Both the position numbers and the translations under genes were made by a program. Under the pieces are notes generated by a model. It was not told where the DNA came from. It worked only from the letters and a program-made list of their open reading frames with translations, and did not search any database. DNA of 64,000 bases, taken from assembly GCA_017447775.1 (NCBI GenBank), contig JAFSMU010000029.1, positions 1 through 64,000 on the forward strand. Reading direction: 5' to 3'. This stretch comes from Clostridia bacterium (lineage in GTDB: Bacteria; Bacillota; Clostridia; Oscillospirales; CAG-272). Of this stretch, positions 24,630 through 37,310 are shown piece by piece (the first letter of the stretch is position 1; each line of letters starts with the position of its first letter).

Positions 24630-24704
24630 GGCCCGTTGGTCAAGCGGTTAAGACGCTAGCCTCTCACGCTGGAAACATGGGTTCGATTCCCGTACGGGTC
24701 ACCA
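24630..24704 (+). tRNA. tRNA-Glu(CTC), CCA encoded
   Basis: 75 bases. Acceptor GGCCCGT/ACGGGTC (one G-T), anticodon loop CTCTCAC giving CTC, T-arm GGGTTCGATTCCC, encoded CCA. It marks the left edge of the accessory region. Confidence 0.95.
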
Positions 24705-25072: not shown

Positions 25073-26104
25073 TTATATATTCCAAAAATAGTTTTCCGCA
25101 ACGATGCATTCGCGATTGTGACCGAGCGCCCTTGATGCTTCGAACATCGCGGCTCTGTCAAAAACTTTTCCGCACATATCGCGGCGACAGTAGTACGCCG
25201 ATGGCACGTCACGATACCCGTCGAGCATCTTTCCGTTTTTCTTATAGAGATAAGAAAAAGCATCGCGATCCCGACGACAGTTTTTTGTCGTGTATCTTGC
25301 AACGATACGATTGTTTTTTACGATAAGCCTCTCGTTCTTGAAATCGGCGAAAGGACGTGCGTACTTTTGATACACTTTTCCTGCGTACTTTGCGCGGTAA
25401 CTATGTATATCGGCGTGGGTATTCACGGTCTTAAAGACCTTGCCGTCGCCCGCCGCGTTGAATTTGTCGATAACAAACTGTATTTCCTCATCGGTGCCGA
25501 CGATTTCGGACACTCTCTCGCGCCCGCCTTTCGTTCCGCGGTCAAAAGATATATACGCTTTGCCGTCTTCGATGACGAGATCTGTGCCTCTGAGTAATCC
25601 GAGTTCTCTCCGGCGGGAGCCGATGCACGAGACAACCGTTATGAGATCAGCGTTTTGAGGAAGCGATGTGTTGAAATACTTGTCGCTCTCGACGTTATTC
25701 CTGCTTCTTTTTATTTCAGCTCTTCTGCGCGGCGGCGTTTTAACGCTGAATTCTTCGCTCTTGCATTGATATACTTTGGCTAATGATGAAAGATACTTCT
25801 TCAATGAACTGGCGGCAAGCCCGTCAGCGATCTTTTCATTTATCCATTCTCCGACGTAAGCGCGACATTCATCAAGCGTTCTCGTCTTATGGCCGATGTC
25901 ATCGGCAATTTTTGTGTTGTTTCTGCACCACTCGGCAAATGCATAACAGTGTTTTTTGTAGTTCTGAAATGTTGTATAACTGTAAATGTATTTGCTGTCT
26001 TCGCCTGTCTTTTTGTCTTCGTGTTTGCTTCGCCCCGGCGACAGCATGCCGTGCAGTTTGACATAGACCTGTTCTTTAAGGGGTGGTATTTTCTGATGTG
26101 GCAT
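25073..26104 (-). CDS. Tyrosine recombinase (phage-type integrase)
   Basis: 343 residues. A helical SAM-like core-binding domain (about 40-125), then a catalytic domain with the whole active-site set: R164 with E167 (GSRRREL), K192 (GTKGG), H234 and R237 (HSYR), H329 (LGHNR) and the nucleophile Y339 five residues from the end. It inserts or excises DNA at a specific site. GGAGG precedes the ATG. A charged insert of about 60 residues lies between boxes II and III. It sits 370 bases from tRNA-Glu, a common type of integration target, but no matching repeat was found. Confidence 0.85.
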   Translation of the reverse strand: MPHQKIPPLKEQVYVKLHGMLSPGRSKHEDKKTGEDSKYIYSYTTFQNYKKHCYAFAEWCRNNTKIADDIGHKTRTLDECRAYVGEWINEKIADGLAASSLKKYLSSLAKVYQCKSEEFSVKTPPRRRAEIKRSRNNVESDKYFNTSLPQNADLITVVSCIGSRRRELGLLRGTDLVIEDGKAYISFDRGTKGGRERVSEIVGTDEEIQFVIDKFNAAGDGKVFKTVNTHADIHSYRAKYAGKVYQKYARPFADFKNERLIVKNNRIVARYTTKNCRRDRDAFSYLYKKNGKMLDGYRDVPSAYYCRRDMCGKVFDRAAMFEASRALGHNRECIVAENYFWNI

Positions 26105-26880: not shown

Positions 26881-27105
26881 TTATTTGAATATTACAATAT
26901 CATTGACGATGGTGTTAAACATTTTGCTGAGCGCGATCAAATTCTCGACGCTCGGCAGTCTCTCCCCGCGCTGCCACTTGTATATTATTCGAGGAGATGA
27001 CAACCCGAGCCATTCTTGTATCTGTGCAACTGTGATTCCATTCTTGACGCGGAGGCGTTTGATGTTTTCCCCCGTGGCGACAAGGTCGATTTGTTCAATC
27101 TTCAT
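26881..27105 (-). CDS. Small XRE-family (Cro-like) DNA-binding protein
   Basis: 74 residues, one helix-turn-helix domain: GENIKRLRVKNGITVAQIQE, WLGLSSPRIIYKWQRGER and LPSVENLIALSKMF. A Cro/XRE regulator with no extra domain. The ATG at 27105 lies inside the preceding gene (11-base overlap) and has GAGGA upstream. It belongs to the leftward operon behind the operator-laden promoter at 27763-27791 and probably opposes the rightward XRE at 27884. Confidence 0.85.
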   Translation of the reverse strand: MKIEQIDLVATGENIKRLRVKNGITVAQIQEWLGLSSPRIIYKWQRGERLPSVENLIALSKMFNTIVNDIVIFK

Positions 27106-27703
27106 CAAGTTCCTCGTCATCGTCGTTTGAACTAAGTATACTTTCAATTATGTATTGCAGCATATCCTTGTCTGCGGCGTCATACAAAAGATTGTTGATC
27201 TTTTTGCCGCAGTATTTGCGTATGAGTTCTATAACTATCGGACTTATTGCGTCATCGATCTTTTTGAGTATCCTTGCTCCGCGAACCGTCAGTTCTTCCT
27301 CGCCGGTTATCTCACGAAGATAATTTATCGCGCTGCACTCTTCTCTGATTGCAGTATCCATAAAGAATTCCGCATTCTTTTCATACTCTTTCTTCTTTTC
27401 CTCGTCGCTTTCCTGCTCAGCCCATGTCTTTGATGCAAGATACATCTTCCAGTCAACCGCCGCCAAACCGCAACTCGATATTAAACACGAAAAATCATCG
27501 GGAAACATCACCATAGTCGAAATCGCATTTGCATCCTCTGCATTAACCATCTTCTCTTCCAATGGCAAATTCTCCTTTCTTTCGTTTTCATCTATTTTTG
27601 AAACACGTGTCCCACGTGGACGTCCGCCTTTCCCGGTCTTCTTTGCTTCTCCCTTTGTGGAGGTTTCAATTTTTGGGGTCGCTTTTTTGATTTTTTCTTC
27701 CAT
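27095..27703 (-). CDS. Unknown protein with AT-hook-like motif
   Basis: 202 residues. A highly charged N-terminus contains GKGGRPRGTR (about residues 25-33), an AT-hook-type minor-groove binding core. The rest is predicted helical and acidic, ending in an Asp/Glu tail (NDDDEELDED). No family recognised. It has AAGGAGA before the ATG and is co-transcribed with the small XRE gene. The AT-hook suggests DNA binding, perhaps at AT-rich element DNA. Confidence 0.65.
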   Translation of the reverse strand: MEEKIKKATPKIETSTKGEAKKTGKGGRPRGTRVSKIDENERKENLPLEEKMVNAEDANAISTMVMFPDDFSCLISSCGLAAVDWKMYLASKTWAEQESDEEKKKEYEKNAEFFMDTAIREECSAINYLREITGEEELTVRGARILKKIDDAISPIVIELIRKYCGKKINNLLYDAADKDMLQYIIESILSSNDDDEELDED

Positions 27704-27734: not shown

Positions 27735-27791
27735 GAGTAGATCTGTTTTCTACTCTGCGTTCATTATATCACAAAGTAGAACATTTGTCAA
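27735..27791 (-). promoter_or_regulatory. Consensus promoter with three operator-like sites
   Basis: Minus-strand TTGACA (27791-27786), 17 bases, TATAAT (27768-27763), a perfect consensus. Related sites GAGTAGA (27735-27741), TCTACTC (27749-27755) and AAGTAGA (27774-27780) surround it; the last lies between -35 and -10. This is the arrangement expected of a repressor-controlled switch promoter. Confidence 0.75.
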
Positions 27792-27830: not shown

Positions 27831-27859
27831 TTGAAAATGATTCTATCTCATGGTAAAAT
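27831..27859 (+). promoter_or_regulatory. Promoter of the XRE-nuclease pair
   Basis: TTGAAA (27831-27836), 17 bases, TAAAAT (27854-27859); start codon 25 bases on. Confidence 0.78.
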
Positions 27860-27883
27860 AATAAAAAAACTTCGGGGTAATTT

Positions 27884-28276
27884 ATGAATATCGGTCAAAA
27901 TATTAAGAGAATACGTGAGTCAAAAAAAATGACGCAAGACAAACTTGCATCTATGCTCGGATACTCTCACAAATCATCAATAAACAAAATTGAAATGGGT
28001 AAAGCCGACATCTCCGCGACAAAGCTCGTTGAACTTGCAAACGCGCTTGAAGTGTCGCCAAACGAGATTCTCAGATTTGATCTCGGTAATTCGAACTCAC
28101 AGTTAAATTCAGAACCAAATGATTATATTGACGCTGTGGCAAAAATATACGGCGAAGACGCTGTGTCTTTGATTAAACAATATGACTCTTTGAATGAGAT
28201 TGGAAAATCTAAAATATCAGAAATGATGGACGATTTGATGAAGATAGACAAGTATATCAAAAAACAAGGAGATTGA
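27884..28276 (+). CDS. XRE-family transcriptional regulator
   Basis: 130 residues. N-terminal helix-turn-helix (about 4-58: IKRIRESKKMTQDKLASML, SHKSSINKIEMGK, LVELANALEVSPNEIL), followed by an acidic helical C-terminal region, probably for dimerisation. AT-rich. GGGG precedes the ATG. Its stop lies six bases before the nuclease ATG and a ribosome site (AAGGAG) sits in its last codons, so the two are one unit. Likely an autoregulator of the pair and of the divergent operon. Confidence 0.9.
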   Translation: MNIGQNIKRIRESKKMTQDKLASMLGYSHKSSINKIEMGKADISATKLVELANALEVSPNEILRFDLGNSNSQLNSEPNDYIDAVAKIYGEDAVSLIKQYDSLNEIGKSKISEMMDDLMKIDKYIKKQGD

Positions 28277-28281
28277 CCAAC

Positions 28282-29784
28282 ATGTACTTTAGCGAAGCAT
28301 TCAACGTTGATAGAGAAATCATAAATAGATACGGAACTATCGACATATCATTAATATGTGATACTCCTTTATTTATTGACCCTATGCTAATATTCAATAG
28401 CAAAAAACCTGCATATAAAAAGTTGCACGATTCAATAATTAGATACTTGCATTTTTTGGCAAAGAAATCTTCTACGACAACTCTATCTGTAGGAGACATT
28501 AAAAACTATTATACATTTAAAGAAGTAAAGGAAAACTGGTTGGGATTTTCTCTTTCTGGAAATCGTGGCTTAGCGTTAGGCAAAGATTTTGCAAAATTTT
28601 TTTCGGAAAAAATAGCCTTTGCTTTAGATACCCATAATATCTCCTCATCACCACATGTTGAAAAGGTCATGTTGTTATATGATGGAACAGGTAAAGATAA
28701 ATTAAGCGATTTTACAACAAATCTAATTAAAGGTTATCTTGCCCATTATACAGAATCATTCGCAAAAAAATACATAGATAAAAGTCGCTGTGATTATTTT
28801 TATGTTGAAAGAAGTTTCTTTAATTACGAGACCGAAAGTTTTGTTTCCGAACAGTTTTATCTACCATTTATCATAAATAAAAAAGGAAAAAAAGAATATG
28901 TTTTATTAACACCTGCCGATATTTTAAGAGAAGATGAAGCGACAATAAATAAAACGGATCTTATTGAAAACAATTTGATGGTAAGAAACTCTATAGACAA
29001 TGATGTCTTAAGATCTCAAGTGGAGAACTATATTGGCATAGCAATAAGAAATTTTGAAAAAACACATACTGGCAAAAGGCAAGGAATATCTGAAAAACAA
29101 TATGCGCGCATTGAAAAATATGCCTTTATTAAGGCATTGGAAAAATGGCCTGAGTTATATGACTATTATGTTAAACTTAAAGAGAACGATACTGAAAATG
29201 TAATTGCTACTGCTCGATTTGAACGAGATAGAATAAAAGAACAATATATTACGATTGTTGAAAAAATTGTTTCTGATTTTAAACAAAACAATTATATTGT
29301 AAATGAAAAAGAGACAGCAATTGATGAAGCGAGAGAACGGATAAGGTTTTTTAAGAATAGAATTGAATTTGGTGGAGTGTATAATTATTTATATTTTAAT
29401 AATCAACCAATTGAAAGCGAATCAATGCTTCAACATTTATTCAAATTGGTGTGGTGTCGAACAACTTATAATTTTGATTCAGAAGTAAATAATGGAACCG
29501 GTCCAGTAGATTTTAAAGTTTCACTCGGAAATGATAATAGCAGTATTGTAGAGTTTAAACTTGCAAAAAACACAAGATTGCCGCGTGTTTTTAATCAGGT
29601 CGCATCATATAAACAAGCTAACAATACAAACAATTCTTTAATTGTGATTTTCTTTTTCAATGAAATCGAGCTAAAAAAAGTTCAATCTCTGATAGATGAG
29701 TTTAAAATAAAAGATTTGATTGATAGAGATATCTTCTTAATTGACTGCCGTAAGGACAATAAAATGTCGGCATCAAAACTATAA
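28282..29784 (+). CDS. Unknown protein with C-terminal RecB-like PD-(D/E)XK nuclease domain
   Basis: 500 residues, strikingly AT-rich. The N-terminal ~390 residues (with IDISLICDTPLFIDPMLIF near 20 and long helices) match no family I can name. The C-terminus has D410 (GPVDFKV), E424-x-K426 (VEFKLAKN) and Q439-xxx-Y443 (QVASY), the D...ExK...QxxxY layout of RecB-type nucleases. It probably cuts or processes DNA. The ATG has AAGGAG ten bases upstream; an in-frame TTG at 28273 is too close to that site. Translated with the XRE gene. Restriction-like or defence role is inferred, not shown. Confidence 0.75.
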   Translation: MYFSEAFNVDREIINRYGTIDISLICDTPLFIDPMLIFNSKKPAYKKLHDSIIRYLHFLAKKSSTTTLSVGDIKNYYTFKEVKENWLGFSLSGNRGLALGKDFAKFFSEKIAFALDTHNISSSPHVEKVMLLYDGTGKDKLSDFTTNLIKGYLAHYTESFAKKYIDKSRCDYFYVERSFFNYETESFVSEQFYLPFIINKKGKKEYVLLTPADILREDEATINKTDLIENNLMVRNSIDNDVLRSQVENYIGIAIRNFEKTHTGKRQGISEKQYARIEKYAFIKALEKWPELYDYYVKLKENDTENVIATARFERDRIKEQYITIVEKIVSDFKQNNYIVNEKETAIDEARERIRFFKNRIEFGGVYNYLYFNNQPIESESMLQHLFKLVWCRTTYNFDSEVNNGTGPVDFKVSLGNDNSSIVEFKLAKNTRLPRVFNQVASYKQANNTNNSLIVIFFFNEIELKKVQSLIDEFKIKDLIDRDIFLIDCRKDNKMSASKL

Positions 29785-29828
29785 CAATCAAAAATCTCAG
29801 AAGGAAAAAACGACCGCGTGAGGTGTCT

Positions 29829-30530
29829 ATGAATTTACATATCGCCATCTGCGACGATGACCGAGTACAAACCGAATATATGAAGACCGCCGTAATGACT
29901 TGGGCGAAGGACAACGCGCACCTATGCGAGATCGCAACTTTCTCGTCCGCCGAGGCATTTTTGTTCGAATACAGCGAAAACGGCAACTTCGACATACTCC
30001 TGCTCGATATCGAAATGGGGCAGATGAACGGCGTCGATCTGGCACGCCGTCTTCGCAAAGACAACGACCGTCTTCAAATCATTTTCGTCACCGGATACGA
30101 CAAATACATCGCCGACGGCTACGACGTCGCGGCCCTCCACTACCTGATGAAACCCGTCGACAAGGACAAGCTTTTCTCCGTGCTCGACCGCGCGGCAAAA
30201 CTGATATCCGACCGCGAAAAGATGCTCGTCATCATCGAAAACAAAACATCGGAAAAGATACCTCTCCACAAGATTATATACATCGAGGCGCAGCAAAACT
30301 ACGTCGTCATACATACTGCCGACGGCGAGCGCCGCGTGCGAGCCGCGCTGTCGGCTGTCGAAAAGCAACTCGACGACGGCTTCTTCCGCACGGGCAAATC
30401 GTTCATCGTCGGAATGAGGTACGTTGCGTCTATATCGAAAACCGAAATAAAACTCGACGACGGCACACAAATACCGCTTGGGCGCGGACTATATGACAAC
30501 GCCCAGCGTGCGTTCATCAAATTCTATTAA
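29829..30530 (+). CDS. LytTR-type response regulator
   Basis: 233 residues. Receiver domain 1-120 with acidic pocket DDD (about 9-11), phospho-acceptor D60 (LLLDIEMG), conserved Thr/Lys (VTGYDK, MKPVDK), then a LytTR DNA-binding domain (about 130-233: IEAQQNYVVIHT, FFRTGKSFIV). It binds paired direct repeats in promoters. Only 44 bases separate it from the nuclease stop and no promoter is evident there. GAGGTG precedes the ATG. Next gene: its GHKL kinase. Confidence 0.92.
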   Translation: MNLHIAICDDDRVQTEYMKTAVMTWAKDNAHLCEIATFSSAEAFLFEYSENGNFDILLLDIEMGQMNGVDLARRLRKDNDRLQIIFVTGYDKYIADGYDVAALHYLMKPVDKDKLFSVLDRAAKLISDREKMLVIIENKTSEKIPLHKIIYIEAQQNYVVIHTADGERRVRAALSAVEKQLDDGFFRTGKSFIVGMRYVASISKTEIKLDDGTQIPLGRGLYDNAQRAFIKFY

Positions 30531-30540
30531 GGAGGCAAGT

Positions 30541-31197
30541 ATGCTGTTTCAAAAAATGATAGACCGCCGCATCGACGCGTATCAATCCGACCTTATGGAC
30601 AAGCACTACGCCGAGGTCGAGAATATGTACCAGCAGGTGCGCGGCTGGCGCCACGACTACCGCAACCATATCCAGACGCTTATGCAGCTTATGAACGAAA
30701 AGCAGTACGATGAGGTGAACGCATACCTGAAAAACCTCGGCACCGATCTGAATACCGTCGACACCGTTCTGAAAACGGGCAACATAATGGCGGACGCGAT
30801 AATCAACTCGAAAATATCCCTCGCCAAAGCGAACAACATCGACGTCAACGCCACGGCGTCGATCCCCGTCGAACTTAAAATCACGGACATCGACCTTTGC
30901 GTTATCATAGGAAACCTCCTCGACAACGCCATCGAAGCGTCGGTCAAACTCCACGAGGGCGAGCGAATGATACGCATTTATATCGAGATGAAGAAAAACG
31001 CGCTGTATATGTCGTTCACCAACCTCACCGCGACAAAGAAAATGGAAAAGCATAACGGCGTGTTCAAATCGACGAAAGACGGCTCGCACGGCTTTGGGCT
31101 GCTCCGCGTCGACAGCATCGTAAAAAAGTACGGCGGCTACATCACTCGTGCGAGTGAGGACGGTGCTTTCACCACCGAAATATTGCTTCCTCAATAA
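30541..31197 (+). CDS. Soluble GHKL sensor histidine kinase
   Basis: 218 residues, no membrane segment. H-box GWRHDYRNHIQTL with the probable phospho-His at H38, N-box NLLDNAIEA (125-133) and G-box GFGLLRVDS (184-192), typical of the SPOR-type GHKL group that partners LytTR regulators. It lacks a sensor domain; it may sense via another membrane protein, perhaps the neighbouring ABC pair. GGAGG precedes the ATG at 30541. Confidence 0.9.
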   Translation: MLFQKMIDRRIDAYQSDLMDKHYAEVENMYQQVRGWRHDYRNHIQTLMQLMNEKQYDEVNAYLKNLGTDLNTVDTVLKTGNIMADAIINSKISLAKANNIDVNATASIPVELKITDIDLCVIIGNLLDNAIEASVKLHEGERMIRIYIEMKKNALYMSFTNLTATKKMEKHNGVFKSTKDGSHGFGLLRVDSIVKKYGGYITRASEDGAFTTEILLPQ

Positions 31198-31203
31198 CAA
31201 AAT

Positions 31204-31273
31204 GTGCATTTCGTCCCCGAAACCGAGCGTTTCGTCCCTGAAATGCACTTTTTATTCTGTTTTGTGGTAGAGT
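31204..31273 (+). promoter_or_regulatory. LytTR-type operator, extended -10 promoter and hairpin
   Basis: TTTCGTCCCCGAAA (31209-31222) and TTTCGTCCCTGAAA (31230-31243) are direct repeats 21 bases apart, about two helical turns, as LytTR proteins bind. An extended -10 (TGGTAGAGT, 31265-31273) follows with no good -35, fitting activation. The same DNA, flanked by GTGCATTTC/GAAATGCAC, can fold into a hairpin before T's, so it may also end the kinase transcript. Confidence 0.7.
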
Positions 31274-31296
31274 AGCATCAGAAAGGAGTTGAGGTT

Positions 31297-33147
31297 ATGA
31301 ACAACGCTGAAACCGAAAAGAAAAAGAGGGAAAAAGCACCGAAACCAAAGTTCAATATGTGGCAAAACTCGGCGTGGATGATATCGATAGCGTGGCGATA
31401 TAAAGAGAAAAAGGTACTTGTGATCGCATTGCTTCAGGTTTTGTTTTACGTTATAAATACTCTGATAGGACTTTACATCACACCGACGGTACTCGCCGAG
31501 GTGGAGTCGCACGCGCCGATATGGGAGATAGTCGGCGTTATCGCCGCGTTTGCTGGCGGAATGATGCTTGTAAATGCATTGAACTCATATGTAAATACGA
31601 ACGCATTTTACGGCAAAATCACGGTAAGGAGCGTGATAATCTCGCTTCTTAACAAAAAGGCGTCGACAACGTCATACCCAAATATGGGGGAGGAAAAATA
31701 CAAGGAACTTGAAACAAAGTCAACCGAATCGACGGACAACAACCGAGCGGCGACCGAGGGCGTGTGGAACACTATCGTATCATTATTACAGAATATCATC
31801 TGTTTTATCATCTATCTTGTGCTTTTAAGCACGGTAAACGTCTACGTTATGCTGATAATAACCGCGACGTCGCTTGTCGGATATTTTGTAAGCAAGCGTC
31901 TTAACGAATACGAATACCGCCACAGAAGCGAAAGAACCGTGCCGGGGGCAAAAATCGGTTATGTTGTCAGAAAATCGAGAGAAACGGCGCCCGCAAAGGA
32001 CATACGCATATTCGGTCTGCGCCCGTGGCTTACCGACGTGTATACCGACGCGATGCGTACCCTTTTCGCGCTGAGAAAACGAGCCGAGGGAGTATATATT
32101 TGGTCGAGCATACTCAGCCTTGTGCTGACACTTTTGCGAAACGGAATTGCCTACTCCTATCTTATAAATCTCGCTTTGTCAAACGGACTTTCTGTCTCTG
32201 AGTTTCTGCTTTATTTCTCAGCCGTCGGCGGATTTGCAAGCTGGGTGAACGGGATACTCAGAGACTTCGGCACCCTGCACAGACAAAGCCTCGATATTTC
32301 GTCGGTGCGGGAATTTCTCGAATATAAAGAACCGTTCAAGTTTGATGACGGCGAGCCGCTCAAATTCGATGAGTTCGGCAAATACGAAATACGCCTCGAA
32401 AACGTGTCGTTCAGGTATCCGAACGCGGAAAAAGACGCGCTCTCGCATATAAACCTCACGCTTCGCCCCGGAGAAAAGGTCGCCGTCGTCGGGCTCAACG
32501 GCGCGGGTAAAACAACTCTCGTCAAGCTGATATGCGGACTTTACGATCCGACGGAGGGGCGGGTGCTGCTCAACGGCAGGGATATACGCGACTACAACAG
32601 GCGCGACTATTACAAAATGTTCTCCGCGGTATTTCAAAATTTCTCGCTTATGGCGGTAAGCGTGGCGGCAAACGTCGCACAAACAGAAGATAACATCGAC
32701 TTTGCCCGCGTAAAAGACTGTATTTCAAAAGCGGGGCTGACGAAAAAGATAGAATCCCTGCCCGAAAAATACGAATCAAAGCTTAACCGCGAGGTGTATG
32801 ATGACGCGACAACGCTTTCCGGCGGCGAAACGCAGCGCCTTATGCTCGCACGTGCTCTTTATAAAAATGCGCCGTTTTTGATCCTCGACGAACCGACAGC
32901 CGCGCTCGACCCGATAGCCGAATCGGATATGTATAATAAATACAACGAAATGGCGAAAGGAAGAACCTCGGTATATATTTCCCATCGCCTTGCGTCCACG
33001 CGCTTCTGCGACAGGATACTTTTCATAAGCGACGCCGTTATTTCGGAAGAGGGCACGCATGACGAGCTGATGCGCACGGGCGGCGGATATGCAAAGCTGT
33101 TCGCCGTGCAGAGCAAATACTATAAGGAGGGCGCGGACAATGAATAA
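31297..33147 (+). CDS. ABC exporter half-transporter 1 (ATP-binding/permease)
   Basis: 616 residues. Six-helix membrane domain (about 45-330), then an ATPase: Walker A GLNGAGKTTLVKLI near 395, Q-loop AVFQNFSL, signature TLSGGETQRLMLAR, Walker B FLILDEPTAALDP, H-loop SHRLAS. Catalytic residues are intact. It forms a heterodimer with the next gene, which starts in its last bases. Cargo (peptide, lantibiotic or drug) is unknown; no peptidase domain and no precursor peptide gene seen. GGAG before the ATG. Confidence 0.92.
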   Translation: MNNAETEKKKREKAPKPKFNMWQNSAWMISIAWRYKEKKVLVIALLQVLFYVINTLIGLYITPTVLAEVESHAPIWEIVGVIAAFAGGMMLVNALNSYVNTNAFYGKITVRSVIISLLNKKASTTSYPNMGEEKYKELETKSTESTDNNRAATEGVWNTIVSLLQNIICFIIYLVLLSTVNVYVMLIITATSLVGYFVSKRLNEYEYRHRSERTVPGAKIGYVVRKSRETAPAKDIRIFGLRPWLTDVYTDAMRTLFALRKRAEGVYIWSSILSLVLTLLRNGIAYSYLINLALSNGLSVSEFLLYFSAVGGFASWVNGILRDFGTLHRQSLDISSVREFLEYKEPFKFDDGEPLKFDEFGKYEIRLENVSFRYPNAEKDALSHINLTLRPGEKVAVVGLNGAGKTTLVKLICGLYDPTEGRVLLNGRDIRDYNRRDYYKMFSAVFQNFSLMAVSVAANVAQTEDNIDFARVKDCISKAGLTKKIESLPEKYESKLNREVYDDATTLSGGETQRLMLARALYKNAPFLILDEPTAALDPIAESDMYNKYNEMAKGRTSVYISHRLASTRFCDRILFISDAVISEEGTHDELMRTGGGYAKLFAVQSKYYKEGADNE

Positions 33148-35017
33148 AAAATATAAAATGTCGTATCATGACGCGATGAAGATAAACCGCCGCGCACTCG
33201 CACTTATGTATAAGCATTTTCCCGGGGCGGTCATGTCTACTTTTGTATCGGCGGTATGGGGCGCACTAACTCCTTATGTGGGTATCTATCTCTCGGCACT
33301 TATTATTTCGGAACTTGCGGGAGCGAAAGACAAAAACAGACTTATAACGCTTGTTCTCATATCGCTTATATCGGCTGCGGCGATTTCTCTCGTTTCAGCG
33401 CTGATAAACAAGTGGAAAAACGTTAAAAATTCATACAATTGGAACAGAATGTGGAATATCTTTTCACAAAAAATGCTCGACGCCGACTTCGCCGTTGTCG
33501 ACGACAGCAAGACGCAGGAGCATTTGTCCATCGTTATGCAGAATGAAAACAGCGGCGGCTGGGGACTTACAAGAGTTTTGGGGAACTATTCGAGCCTTAT
33601 AAGCAACGTCGCGTCGTTTATCGGCGGCATATCGCTGACGGTAACGCTGTTTGTAAGCAGAGTTCCCGAGAGCGCCGGCGGATTTACGGTGCTGAACAGT
33701 CCTCTTTTCATCGTAGGGATAACCGCGATACTTATTGCCGTCACACTTATCTCTCCCGCCCTTTCGACGAAAGCCGGCAGCTATTTCGCCAAAAACTCGA
33801 AAACGAATAATTATGCCAACAGACTTTTCGGCTTTTTCGGTTTTTTGGGCTTTCTGAACGAAAAGGCGTGCGACGTGCGCATATACGATCAGGAGAAAAT
33901 GTGCGATAAATATAACCTCGATAAAGAATCTACGTTTGGCTCCGGCGGTCTGTTTGCAAAGATAGCGAAAGAAAAGGAGGGGCCGCTTGCGGCACTGTCG
34001 TCCGCAGTATCGGTGTTATTTACGGCGGCTGCCTATGTCTTTGTGTGCTTAAAAGCGTGGGCGGGTGCGTTCGGCGTCGGCGAGATAACGATGTACATCT
34101 CCTCGCTCACGCGGCTCTCCGGTGGTCTTTCGGGATTGCTTTCGACTATCGGCGATATGAGAAATAACGCGTCTTTTCTCAAAACGGCGTTTGAATTTCT
34201 CGATATTAAAAACCCGATGTACCAGGGCTCGCTTTCGGTTGAAAAGCGCAGCGACAGAAACTATGAAATAGAATTTAGAAACGTGTCTTTCAAATATCCC
34301 GGCAGCGACAGTTTTGCGCTGAAAAACGTGAATATGAAATTTCGCATCGGCGAGCGGCTCGCCGTCGTCGGAATGAACGGAAGCGGCAAAACGACATTTA
34401 TCAAGCTTCTTTGCCGCATGTATGATCCCACCGAGGGCGAAATATTGCTAAACGGGATAAACATAAGAAAATATGATTATTATGATTATCTCTCGGTGTT
34501 CTCAGTGGTGTTTCAGGATTTTAATCTGTTTTCTCTCCCGCTCGGGCAAAACGTCGGCGCGGGTGTGAATTATGACCGCGAGCGCGTCGAAAAGTGTCTT
34601 AGTGACGCAGGCTTCGGCGAAAGGCTGAAAGAGCTTCCGTTCGGGCTTGAGACATATCTGTATAAAAATATAAGCAAAGACGGAATTGAGATATCCGGCG
34701 GCGAGGCGCAGAAGATCGCGCTTGCCCGTGCGCTCTACAAAAATGCGCCGTTCATTATCCTCGACGAGCCGACGGCGGCGCTCGATCCGATAGCCGAAGC
34801 GGAGGTCTACTCGAATTTCAACAACATCGTCGGCGATAAGACGGCGATCTATATCAGCCACCGTCTTTCCTCCTGCCGCTTCTGCGACGAGATCGCCGTG
34901 TTCGATCAAGGTCAGGTCGTGCAAAAGGGCACGCATGACGCGCTCGTCGCCGACGAGGGCGGCAAATACCACGAACTTTGGTACGCCCAAGCGCAGTATT
35001 ACACGGAGAAGGAATAG
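33140..35017 (+). CDS. ABC exporter half-transporter 2 (ATP-binding/permease)
   Basis: 625 residues. Membrane domain, then Walker A GMNGSGKTTFIKLL near 400, Q-loop VVFQDFNLF, signature EISGGEAQKIALAR (Ile for the usual Leu), Walker B FIILDEPTAALDP, H-loop SHRLSS. Both half-sites look active. The start (MNKKYKM) overlaps the first half-transporter by eight bases and has AAGGAGG upstream. Ends at a terminator. The LytTR-kinase pair next to it probably controls both. Confidence 0.92.
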   Translation: MNKKYKMSYHDAMKINRRALALMYKHFPGAVMSTFVSAVWGALTPYVGIYLSALIISELAGAKDKNRLITLVLISLISAAAISLVSALINKWKNVKNSYNWNRMWNIFSQKMLDADFAVVDDSKTQEHLSIVMQNENSGGWGLTRVLGNYSSLISNVASFIGGISLTVTLFVSRVPESAGGFTVLNSPLFIVGITAILIAVTLISPALSTKAGSYFAKNSKTNNYANRLFGFFGFLGFLNEKACDVRIYDQEKMCDKYNLDKESTFGSGGLFAKIAKEKEGPLAALSSAVSVLFTAAAYVFVCLKAWAGAFGVGEITMYISSLTRLSGGLSGLLSTIGDMRNNASFLKTAFEFLDIKNPMYQGSLSVEKRSDRNYEIEFRNVSFKYPGSDSFALKNVNMKFRIGERLAVVGMNGSGKTTFIKLLCRMYDPTEGEILLNGINIRKYDYYDYLSVFSVVFQDFNLFSLPLGQNVGAGVNYDRERVEKCLSDAGFGERLKELPFGLETYLYKNISKDGIEISGGEAQKIALARALYKNAPFIILDEPTAALDPIAEAEVYSNFNNIVGDKTAIYISHRLSSCRFCDEIAVFDQGQVVQKGTHDALVADEGGKYHELWYAQAQYYTEKE

Positions 35018-35177: not shown

Positions 35178-36650
35178 ATGAAAGGTGTAATCTACGCACG
35201 GTATTCATCAAGCAAGCAGCGCGAAGAGTCGATCGAGGGGCAAATTCGCGAGAATACGGCGTTTGCCGACAAAAACGGAATTGAAATCGTCGGCACGTAT
35301 ATTGACCGCGCGCAATCGGCGAAGACGGACGACCGTCCCGAATTCAAAAGAATGATCAAAGAGAGTTCGTGGAAAAAATACGACGTTGTAATCGTGTGGA
35401 AGCTCGACCGATTTGCACGCAACAGATATGATTCCGCCAAGTATAAAGCGATTTTGTCAATTAACGGCAAAAAAGTCATCTCTGCGACCGAAGCAATCTC
35501 CGAAGGTCCCGAGGGCGTTCTTTTGGAGTCGGTTCTTGAAGGGCTTGCCGCATATTACTCGGAAGAACTATCCGAGAAAGTCACACGCGGAATGACTGAA
35601 AACGCGCTCAAATGCAAATACAACGGCGGCCACGCCGCTCCTTTCGGTTTTTACATAGATTCGGACAAGCATTATCAGATTGACGCTGCCAGAGCGCCCA
35701 TTGCGCTTGAAATCTTCACACGTTATGCCGATGGCGAATCGATAAAAAGCATTATCGGCGATTTGAACGAGCGTGGCGTTAAAACATCGCGCGGAACGCC
35801 ATTCAATAAGAGCAGCATAATAAATATGGTTCACAATCGGAACTACATCGGAGAATACCACTTCGGAGAAACGATAATTCCAAACGGCATCCCGGCGATC
35901 ATTCCGGAGGAAACATTCAACAAGGCGACGGAAAGAGCAGACATCAACAAACACGCGCCCGCGCAACACAAAGCAAGGGAAAGATACATACTTACGACAA
36001 AACTCTACTGCGGTGAATGTATGTCGATGATGGTCGGCGACAGCGTAAACAAAAAAGACCGCACATACAGATATTACAAATGCTCATCGGCAAAACGGCA
36101 CGAATGCGACTTGAAACCGGTGCGAAAAGAGCTAATCGAAGATTACGTTATCAGAAAAACGATGGAAAGCATCTCGGACGACAAAACGATGACCGCCATT
36201 GTCAACAGAATAATGAAAATCTACGACAAGGAAAACACGATAATTCCGGCTCTCGAAGAACAGCTAAAAGAAACGCGGTCATCAATTGAAAACATTTTGA
36301 AAGCGATCGAATCGGGCGTGTTCACAAAGTCGACGAAATCACGGCTGGAAAAGCTCGAAGCCGAAGAAGAGGCGCTTGAAAAAGAGATCGATGATGAAAA
36401 ATACAACAGACCGCCTCTTACAAAAGAGATGGTTTGGTTTGTCATTGATAAGTACCGCAATCTCGATATGACCATCGAAAAAGAACGCGAAAAACTTATT
36501 GACGGGCTTGTCGGAAGGATTCTCCTCTTCGGTGACGGGCGTCTTATCATAACGTTCAACTACAAAAACGAGCCCGTTGAAACAACGCTTGACGAGATAA
36601 TCGCCGCCGCAACATCAAGTTCGGATATTAACAACTTTGGTTCACCATAA
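35178..36650 (+). CDS. Large serine recombinase
   Basis: 490 residues. N-terminal resolvase domain with catalytic S10 (YARYSSSKQ), DRAQSAKTDDRPEF and KLDRFARNRYD (DRxxRN). Then a recombinase domain (about 155-260, KCKYNGGHAAPFGF), a zinc ribbon (CGECMSMM, YYKCSSAKRHEC near 275-310) and a coiled coil (about 350-420). These enzymes integrate and excise mobile elements at short att sites. GGAG precedes the ATG. It may have carried the whole region or only its right part. Confidence 0.93.
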   Translation: MKGVIYARYSSSKQREESIEGQIRENTAFADKNGIEIVGTYIDRAQSAKTDDRPEFKRMIKESSWKKYDVVIVWKLDRFARNRYDSAKYKAILSINGKKVISATEAISEGPEGVLLESVLEGLAAYYSEELSEKVTRGMTENALKCKYNGGHAAPFGFYIDSDKHYQIDAARAPIALEIFTRYADGESIKSIIGDLNERGVKTSRGTPFNKSSIINMVHNRNYIGEYHFGETIIPNGIPAIIPEETFNKATERADINKHAPAQHKARERYILTTKLYCGECMSMMVGDSVNKKDRTYRYYKCSSAKRHECDLKPVRKELIEDYVIRKTMESISDDKTMTAIVNRIMKIYDKENTIIPALEEQLKETRSSIENILKAIESGVFTKSTKSRLEKLEAEEEALEKEIDDEKYNRPPLTKEMVWFVIDKYRNLDMTIEKEREKLIDGLVGRILLFGDGRLIITFNYKNEPVETTLDEIIAAATSSSDINNFGSP

Positions 36651-36782: not shown

Positions 36783-37310
36783 ATGAATCGTGAAGATGCT
36801 TTTTATTACGAAAATCTATTAGTTATTGGATTTTCGGATGAATACGATAAATGGCTAAATTCCCTTCTTGAAACAGAAAACCCGTTAAGTGGTATTACCC
36901 TAGACTTGGCTAATTGTGGAGCTGAAAAAAATAAAACCATTTCTGTCCTCAGGCAATATCGATTAGAGCAGCCAATTGATGAAAAGAATGTTTGCAGAAG
37001 ATTGAGACTGTTTTTAAAGACATCATATGATTCCGGACAAATGGAAAAAGGTCAAGTCGTTTCTGCTATGTATACGGTCGCTTCGCACATTGGAGGCCCT
37101 GGGAATTTTGATATTGAAATATGGGGCGATATGTTCTATTTTGATGATTATTATTCTTTGGCAAAAGAAGGTATACTTGCTTGGGAAGGTTTTGATAAAG
37201 CGTTTTTTGCTTATCTGAATGATGGCATATCATTGGATTCCGAGAAAATTTGGGGTTATAACAAGAAATTAACTTTTTTCCAGCGAATTAAACGTTTTTT
37301 AAAAAAATGA
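36783..37310 (+). CDS. Orphan AT-rich protein of unknown function
   Basis: 175 residues, no signal peptide or membrane helix, mainly helical and acidic with a basic end (QRIKRFLKK). Visible blocks: YDKWLNSLLETENPL, LTLDLANCG-like TLDLANCGAEKN, RRLRLFLKTSY and VASHIGGPGNFDIEIWGDMF. I do not recognise the family; the shape would suit an immunity or accessory protein, but nothing shows it. GGAG precedes the ATG. It sits between the serine recombinase and the return to host-like DNA. Confidence 0.65.
   Translation: MNREDAFYYENLLVIGFSDEYDKWLNSLLETENPLSGITLDLANCGAEKNKTISVLRQYRLEQPIDEKNVCRRLRLFLKTSYDSGQMEKGQVVSAMYTVASHIGGPGNFDIEIWGDMFYFDDYYSLAKEGILAWEGFDKAFFAYLNDGISLDSEKIWGYNKKLTFFQRIKRFLKK

Follow-up and report, generated by a model that had tools for sequence, protein, structure and literature searches.

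An AT-rich locus of a Clostridia bacterium encodes a predicted PD-(D/E)XK nuclease whose N-terminal module recurs with other C-terminal domains

PDC-M36, a candidate system of PADLOC-DB made up of PDC-M36A and PDC-M36B, possesses an N-terminal module homologous to that of the protein described here, with the same invariant residues. The C-terminal region of PDC-M36A is also PD-(D/E)XK-like, but belongs to a different nuclease lineage. Shedu (SduA) has a similar layout, in which one polypeptide carries a control region at its N-terminus and a PD-(D/E)XK nuclease at its C-terminus; according to PMC12839542, its nuclease is kept and its N-terminal part varies. The accessible part of this source also reports auxiliary PD-(D/E)XK nucleases within BREX operons; it does not name the N-terminal module (N-module) of our family. 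A third relative, phrog_30194, matches our protein over its full length (8e-30) and has no function assigned. In the open-access literature, which leaves most subscription journals outside, we found no experimental paper on this family or on PDC-M36, and none of the papers found named PDC-M36 or the homologue accessions that we tried.

We analysed a stretch of 64,000 nucleotides of contig JAFSMU010000029.1 from a Clostridia bacterium (hereafter, the window). As an initial annotation had proposed, it contains an XRE regulator gene followed by an ORF of 500 residues, referred to below as the nuclease gene (Table 1). The two were said to be separated by six bases and to share a Shine-Dalgarno region; a candidate for the latter was indeed found, but the gap amounts to 5 nt (28277-28281). 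The DNA is far more AT-rich than its neighbours, as claimed, with a GC content of 36% for the XRE gene and 30% for the nuclease gene, compared with about 42-56% for nearly all other ORFs of the window and about 50% for the surrounding genome region, and it does lie among recombinases, one of them a weak match and the other a clear one. The promoter-like site upstream of the XRE gene is weak, because the region held no more matches of this kind than shuffled sequences did.

Table 1. Coordinates of features in and around the nuclease locus of the window
Feature	Position	Strand	Remarks
Weak tyrosine-recombinase-like ORF	25073-26104	-	weak match
Short XRE gene	26881-27147	-	leftward gene
202-aa protein without assigned function	27095-27703	-	leftward gene
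Sigma-70-type promoter, TTGACA-17-TATAAT with TG extension	27763-27791	-	perfect 12/12; serves leftward genes (27095-27703, 26881-27147)
Promoter-like site TTGAAA-17-TAAAAT	27831-27859	+	upstream of XRE gene; 10/12 consensus match
XRE-family HTH regulator, 130 aa	27884-28276	+	HTH_3 E=2.5e-14
Candidate Shine-Dalgarno AAGGAG for nuclease gene	28266-28271	+	inside XRE 3' end; sequence
500-aa protein, N-module + helical linker + predicted PD-(D/E)XK nuclease	28282-29784	+	ATG at 28282, stop codon end 29784
N-module, residues 1-250	28282-29031	+	invariant residues shared by 19 highly divergent proteins
Helical linker, residues about 251-340	29032-29301	+	least conserved part
Predicted PD-(D/E)XK nuclease domain, residues about 341-500	29302-29781	+	predicted model and fold matches
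D410 codon, predicted metal-binding Asp of PD motif	29509-29511	+	invariant 86/86
E424-F425-K426 codons, E-x-K motif	29551-29559	+	E424 and K426 invariant 86/86
Q439 to Y443 codons, RecB-type QxxxY motif	29596-29610	+	Q439 and Y443 invariant 86/86
LytTR response regulator, GHKL kinase, two ABC transporter genes	29823-35017	+	between nuclease and serine recombinase
Serine recombinase	35178-36650		clear match

Inverted repeats were found at and just downstream of the leftward promoter (GAGTAGA/TCTACTC at 27735-27755 and TTCTACTCTG/CAAAGTAGAA at 27748-27781) and are likely to represent an operator. On the other side, the LytTR/GHKL/ABC block looks like a peptide-signalling or export cassette, and its LytTR regulator has close relatives in several genomes of the family. 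Immediately behind the serine recombinase gene, we also observed a second AT-rich ORF (36783-37310, + strand, 175 aa, GC 34.5%), with no match in Pfam or PADLOC. The nuclease gene had no recognised defence gene, such as a methylase or a helicase, as its neighbour, and no defence match was obtained among the tested flanking genes. Matches to N6_Mtase in this genome were on contigs C21 and C32 and none was on the contig of the window (C28); thus, neither this search nor the comparison of the flanking genes with defence families disclosed a cognate methyltransferase. A same-genus genome (G072) shares the gene order only as far as an aminotransferase gene (at about 24.0 kb) and lacks the tRNA, so that this empty-site comparison does not set the boundaries of an element. 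The tRNA-Glu at 24630 was considered as an attachment site and rejected: there was no convincing direct repeat of its 3' end on the far side, and D7 (30228) falls within a gene.

The C-terminal half of the protein is, with good support from conservation and modelling, a predicted PD-(D/E)XK nuclease. Residues D410, E424, K426, Q439 and Y443, noticed at the outset as a RecB-type layout, were invariant in all 86 aligned homologues, far beyond chance, as were E380, G405 and G407. An AlphaFold2 model of the 500-aa protein (mean pLDDT 87.9, pTM 0.84) predicted a helix (380-388), three strands (397-403, 408-414, 420-427), a second helix (433-446) and a last strand (452-458), which is the alpha-beta-beta-beta-alpha-beta order of the canonical PD-(D/E)XK core. 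In this model, D410 is on the second strand and E424-x-K426 on the third, as in the D...(D/E)-x-K site of the superfamily, while Q439 and Y443 are on the helix that follows, as in the RecB-type subgroup; D410, E424 and K426 would form the metal site. A PDB fold search with residues 341-492 gave moderate scores throughout (Z 5.3-7.2), with BamHI (7.2), OkrAI (7.1), Can2 (6.4), EndoMS (6.2), Shedu SduA structures (5.3-5.4) and also BpuSI among the matches. Sequence searches of Pfam, NCBIfam and the PDB with the nuclease provided no usable match; when homologues were taken singly, 12 of the 86 weakly matched PDDEXK_9. Matches to Cas2 and myosin were attributed to chance.

The first ~390 residues had at first been matched to nothing that could be named. 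Profile searches and structure prediction delimited in this part a separate module of about 250 residues, which indeed had no Pfam match and, when modelled alone (pTM 0.84), no match in a PDB fold search (best Z 2.2), a result that does not prove a new fold. PDB matches of the module profile to a CFA/I fimbrial subunit and to Swi5 were discarded as composition or linker effects, the supported stretch being absent or marginal. The N-terminal part did, however, match PDC-M36A, though only from residue 27 to residue 241 (profile positions 31-235 of 457, 61 bits), and all 86 homologues matched this candidate family. No PDC-M36B match was present among the tested proteins flanking the window nuclease. 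Judged from its sequence, the window protein is thus related to PDC-M36 and is not a member of it, since the match is N-terminal alone and PDC-M36B is missing. The family is therefore not entirely without a name, as phrog_30194 and PDC-M36A show, but neither of these has an assigned function.

Segments 21-40, 81-100 and 121-160 of the module are conserved as well as or better than the nuclease core. Eight residues (D27, E81, G88, G96, D139, S142, D143 and P211) were invariant in an alignment of 19 proteins that included nuclease-free members, and all eight were kept in 15 further Pseudomonadota proteins. This mostly acidic set suggests binding of a metal, a nucleotide or a nucleic acid, and the module could accordingly be a sensor or licensing part, or a second active site.

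Plasmid matches that covered the N-module alone led us to other architectures. In L129 and L130 the protein is true PDC-M36A, matching the entire profile with about 800 bits; its C-terminus is of another PD-(D/E)XK-like kind, and its gene precedes two PDC-M36B genes, which the window lacks. In L127 (D410N/E424K) and L128 (D410E/E424H), the nuclease is probably dead and the N-module is kept. Three Bacillota proteins of only 326-351 aa (L139, L140 and L141) end soon after the module, which they matched with E-values of 1.7e-33, 1.1e-24 and 2.9e-20; because the profile was built before these proteins were known, these values are independent evidence, in contrast to the hhalign comparison of alignment A7 with L141, which is circular as L141 is part of A7. 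A gene that we take from its sequence to encode an ABC/AAA_21-like ATPase is found near the N-module gene in two of the three (L139:2714-5255 and L141:3395-6240), where the nuclease-free module and the ATPase could possibly form a two-gene system.

Among Pseudomonadota, the N-module was found in 16 of 398 genomes. The C-termini of 16 intact proteins (15 new ones and that of the seed genome) were of the window type in nine cases, of the PDC-M36A type in one and of a third nuclease type in six (RKRIDI.YTN ... VECKNY ... NPE(I/L)DQ; L173-L176, L177 and L178). The gene of one protein of this third type (L177) adjoins hsdM, and hsdS and hsdR are close by. A homologue on a Janthinobacterium plasmid (L005:5977-7419) lacks the GxGPVDF segment that holds D410 and has probably lost catalysis. 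The N-module is thus joined to any of three PD-(D/E)XK types or to an inactivated nuclease, forms part of true PDC-M36A/B, and is also found alone, in two instances by ATPase genes. Because replacement, inactivation or loss of the nuclease leaves it intact, it must have a function of its own, and the nuclease would be one of several effectors that can be attached to it. This is the converse of what PMC12839542 describes for Shedu. Pfam searches revealed no match to DUF4263, the Shedu nuclease domain, either for the window protein (E up to 5) or in the list of families matched by the 86 homologues. By the features tested, the window protein is not Shedu and, as far as the alignments tell, reverses its design, with a constant front and a variable nuclease.

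The genomic context of the nuclease was surveyed in 94 loci (80 from species genomes, 8 from viral contigs and 6 from plasmids), in all but three of which the nuclease ORF was resolved. The recurrent neighbours were RM-type rather than XRE genes. At least 28 of 80 loci had RM genes (type I, type III or other) or SNF2-type genes no more than 10 kb away, and this is a minimum since only gene clusters present in several loci were counted; in the other 52, clustering found no RM gene. HsdM-type genes occurred at 9 loci versus about 0.3 expected, this expectation being derived from a rough count of ~0.25 strong N6_Mtase matches (≥200 bits) per Mb in 101 genomes of a single phylum, Bacillota, and applied to 1.24 Mb of flanks. 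The nuclease gene overlaps by 4 nt with hsdS in L047, L049, L068 and L082, with res in L035 and with mod in L042; it comes after an MmeI-type enzyme in L087 and, in a BREX-like arrangement (L040), lies between a PglX-type methylase and an SNF2 helicase, behind a DUF6079 gene. PMC12839542 describes auxiliary PD-(D/E)XK effectors that accompany BREX and RM systems; these too are stand-alone REase genes within the operons, as in L040, L047, L049 and L082. In the closest relative of the window protein (L009, 65% identity), a type I RM operon is encoded on the opposite strand, 310 nt downstream.

The family is scattered across many bacterial phyla. A family-level search found the nuclease in only 1 of 196 genomes, that of the window itself, with no copy in the other 195, and a phylum-level search of 299 genomes gave the window as its sole full-length match, besides partial matches (L099, L100 and L102). 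In the tree, the window protein groups with its nearest relative, a Gastranaerophilales sequence, in a clade made up mostly of Bacillota, together with one Elusimicrobiota and one 'Crenarchaeota' MAG sequence; the 23 phylum labels need 31 changes, some of which may reflect MAG contamination. The GC content of the nuclease gene is 26-34% even where the flanks are at 40-52% (L010, L013, L019, L020 and L021). No match to the nuclease was found in phage records, and viral contigs gave none with a single-sequence query and 8 with an alignment query. Composition and distribution indicate that the nuclease gene is moving horizontally.

An iterative HTH profile disclosed a same-strand XRE gene directly upstream of the nuclease gene only in the window and in L002, a Roseomonas plasmid, i.e., in 1 of the 93 other loci where the nuclease ORF could be resolved; L009 had no adjacent XRE gene. 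Because this adjacency is confined to two loci, the XRE-nuclease pair is not the functional unit, contrary to the two-gene cassette initially postulated, and the XRE gene may regulate the nuclease operon in the window. The tight coupling in the window and the XRE-ImmA/IrrE-type gene lying 8 nt upstream of the nuclease gene in L002 could also be those of a toxin-antitoxin-like pair, with XRE as the antitoxin or repressor and host DNA as the target of a toxic nuclease. Yet the conserved adjacent antitoxin of a type II system is absent, and most copies are not flanked by a small partner gene, which makes this the least probable of the explanations that we weighed. A role in DNA repair or element maintenance, devoid of any immune function, would agree with the 17 of 80 loci that have recombinase genes no more than 10 kb away and with a fold that also resembles repair nucleases such as EndoMS; it appears improbable in view of the RM/BREX enrichment, the sporadic distribution and the lack of a fixed repair or replication neighbour.

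The nuclease could also be an accessory subunit of RM or BREX systems, an extra restriction or back-up nuclease active only with a methylase-containing partner, the window copy being an orphan. Its embedding in operons of several unrelated RM types, with 4-nt overlaps, fits with this, as do the auxiliary PD-(D/E)XK nucleases that PMC12839542 places in BREX operons. However, the differences between HsdS, Res, Mod, MmeI-like and PglX-like proteins argue against one physical partner, and for many copies, including that of the window and most of its clade, the direct neighbour is not an RM gene; we consider this explanation unlikely, though less so than the two preceding ones. We favour, with a probability of roughly 0.6, a role of the 500-aa protein as an anti-phage or anti-element DNA nuclease that moves horizontally and is under N-terminal control. 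The arguments are comparative, consisting of the C-domain motif and predicted fold, the RM/BREX association, the swapping of modules and the sporadic, horizontal distribution; from these we infer DNA as the substrate, a defence function, sensing or licensing by the N-module and repression by XRE. The N-module would recognise a cue or license activity, and the PD-(D/E)XK domain would cut DNA. In many genomes the nuclease would be an add-on to RM or BREX operons, while the window copy would stand alone, its operon probably repressed by the local XRE gene. Of the defence-like cassette first suggested, the RecB-type nuclease core and the foreign, mobile gene are supported, as is a defence-like setting in relatives, and the XRE pair as a unit is not.

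More tentatively, and at somewhat under even odds, residues 1-250 may constitute a functional module of a new kind, either an enzyme or a ligand sensor, with a site formed by the acidic D27, D33, E81, D139 and D143 and by S142. It would define a superfamily of defence proteins with an interchangeable effector, i.e., one of three PD-(D/E)XK types, an inactivated nuclease or, where there is no nuclease, a neighbouring ATPase gene. This would make the superfamily a counterpart to Shedu, with a fixed recognition part and swappable nucleases. At least four architectures near RM, BREX and other defence genes contain this widely distributed, uncharacterised module, and the invariant D27/E81/D139/S142/D143 set makes its role accessible to mutagenesis. 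Should the N-module be the sensor or else a second enzyme, knowledge of its ligand or activity would account together for several candidate systems, namely PDC-M36 and the family of the window protein.
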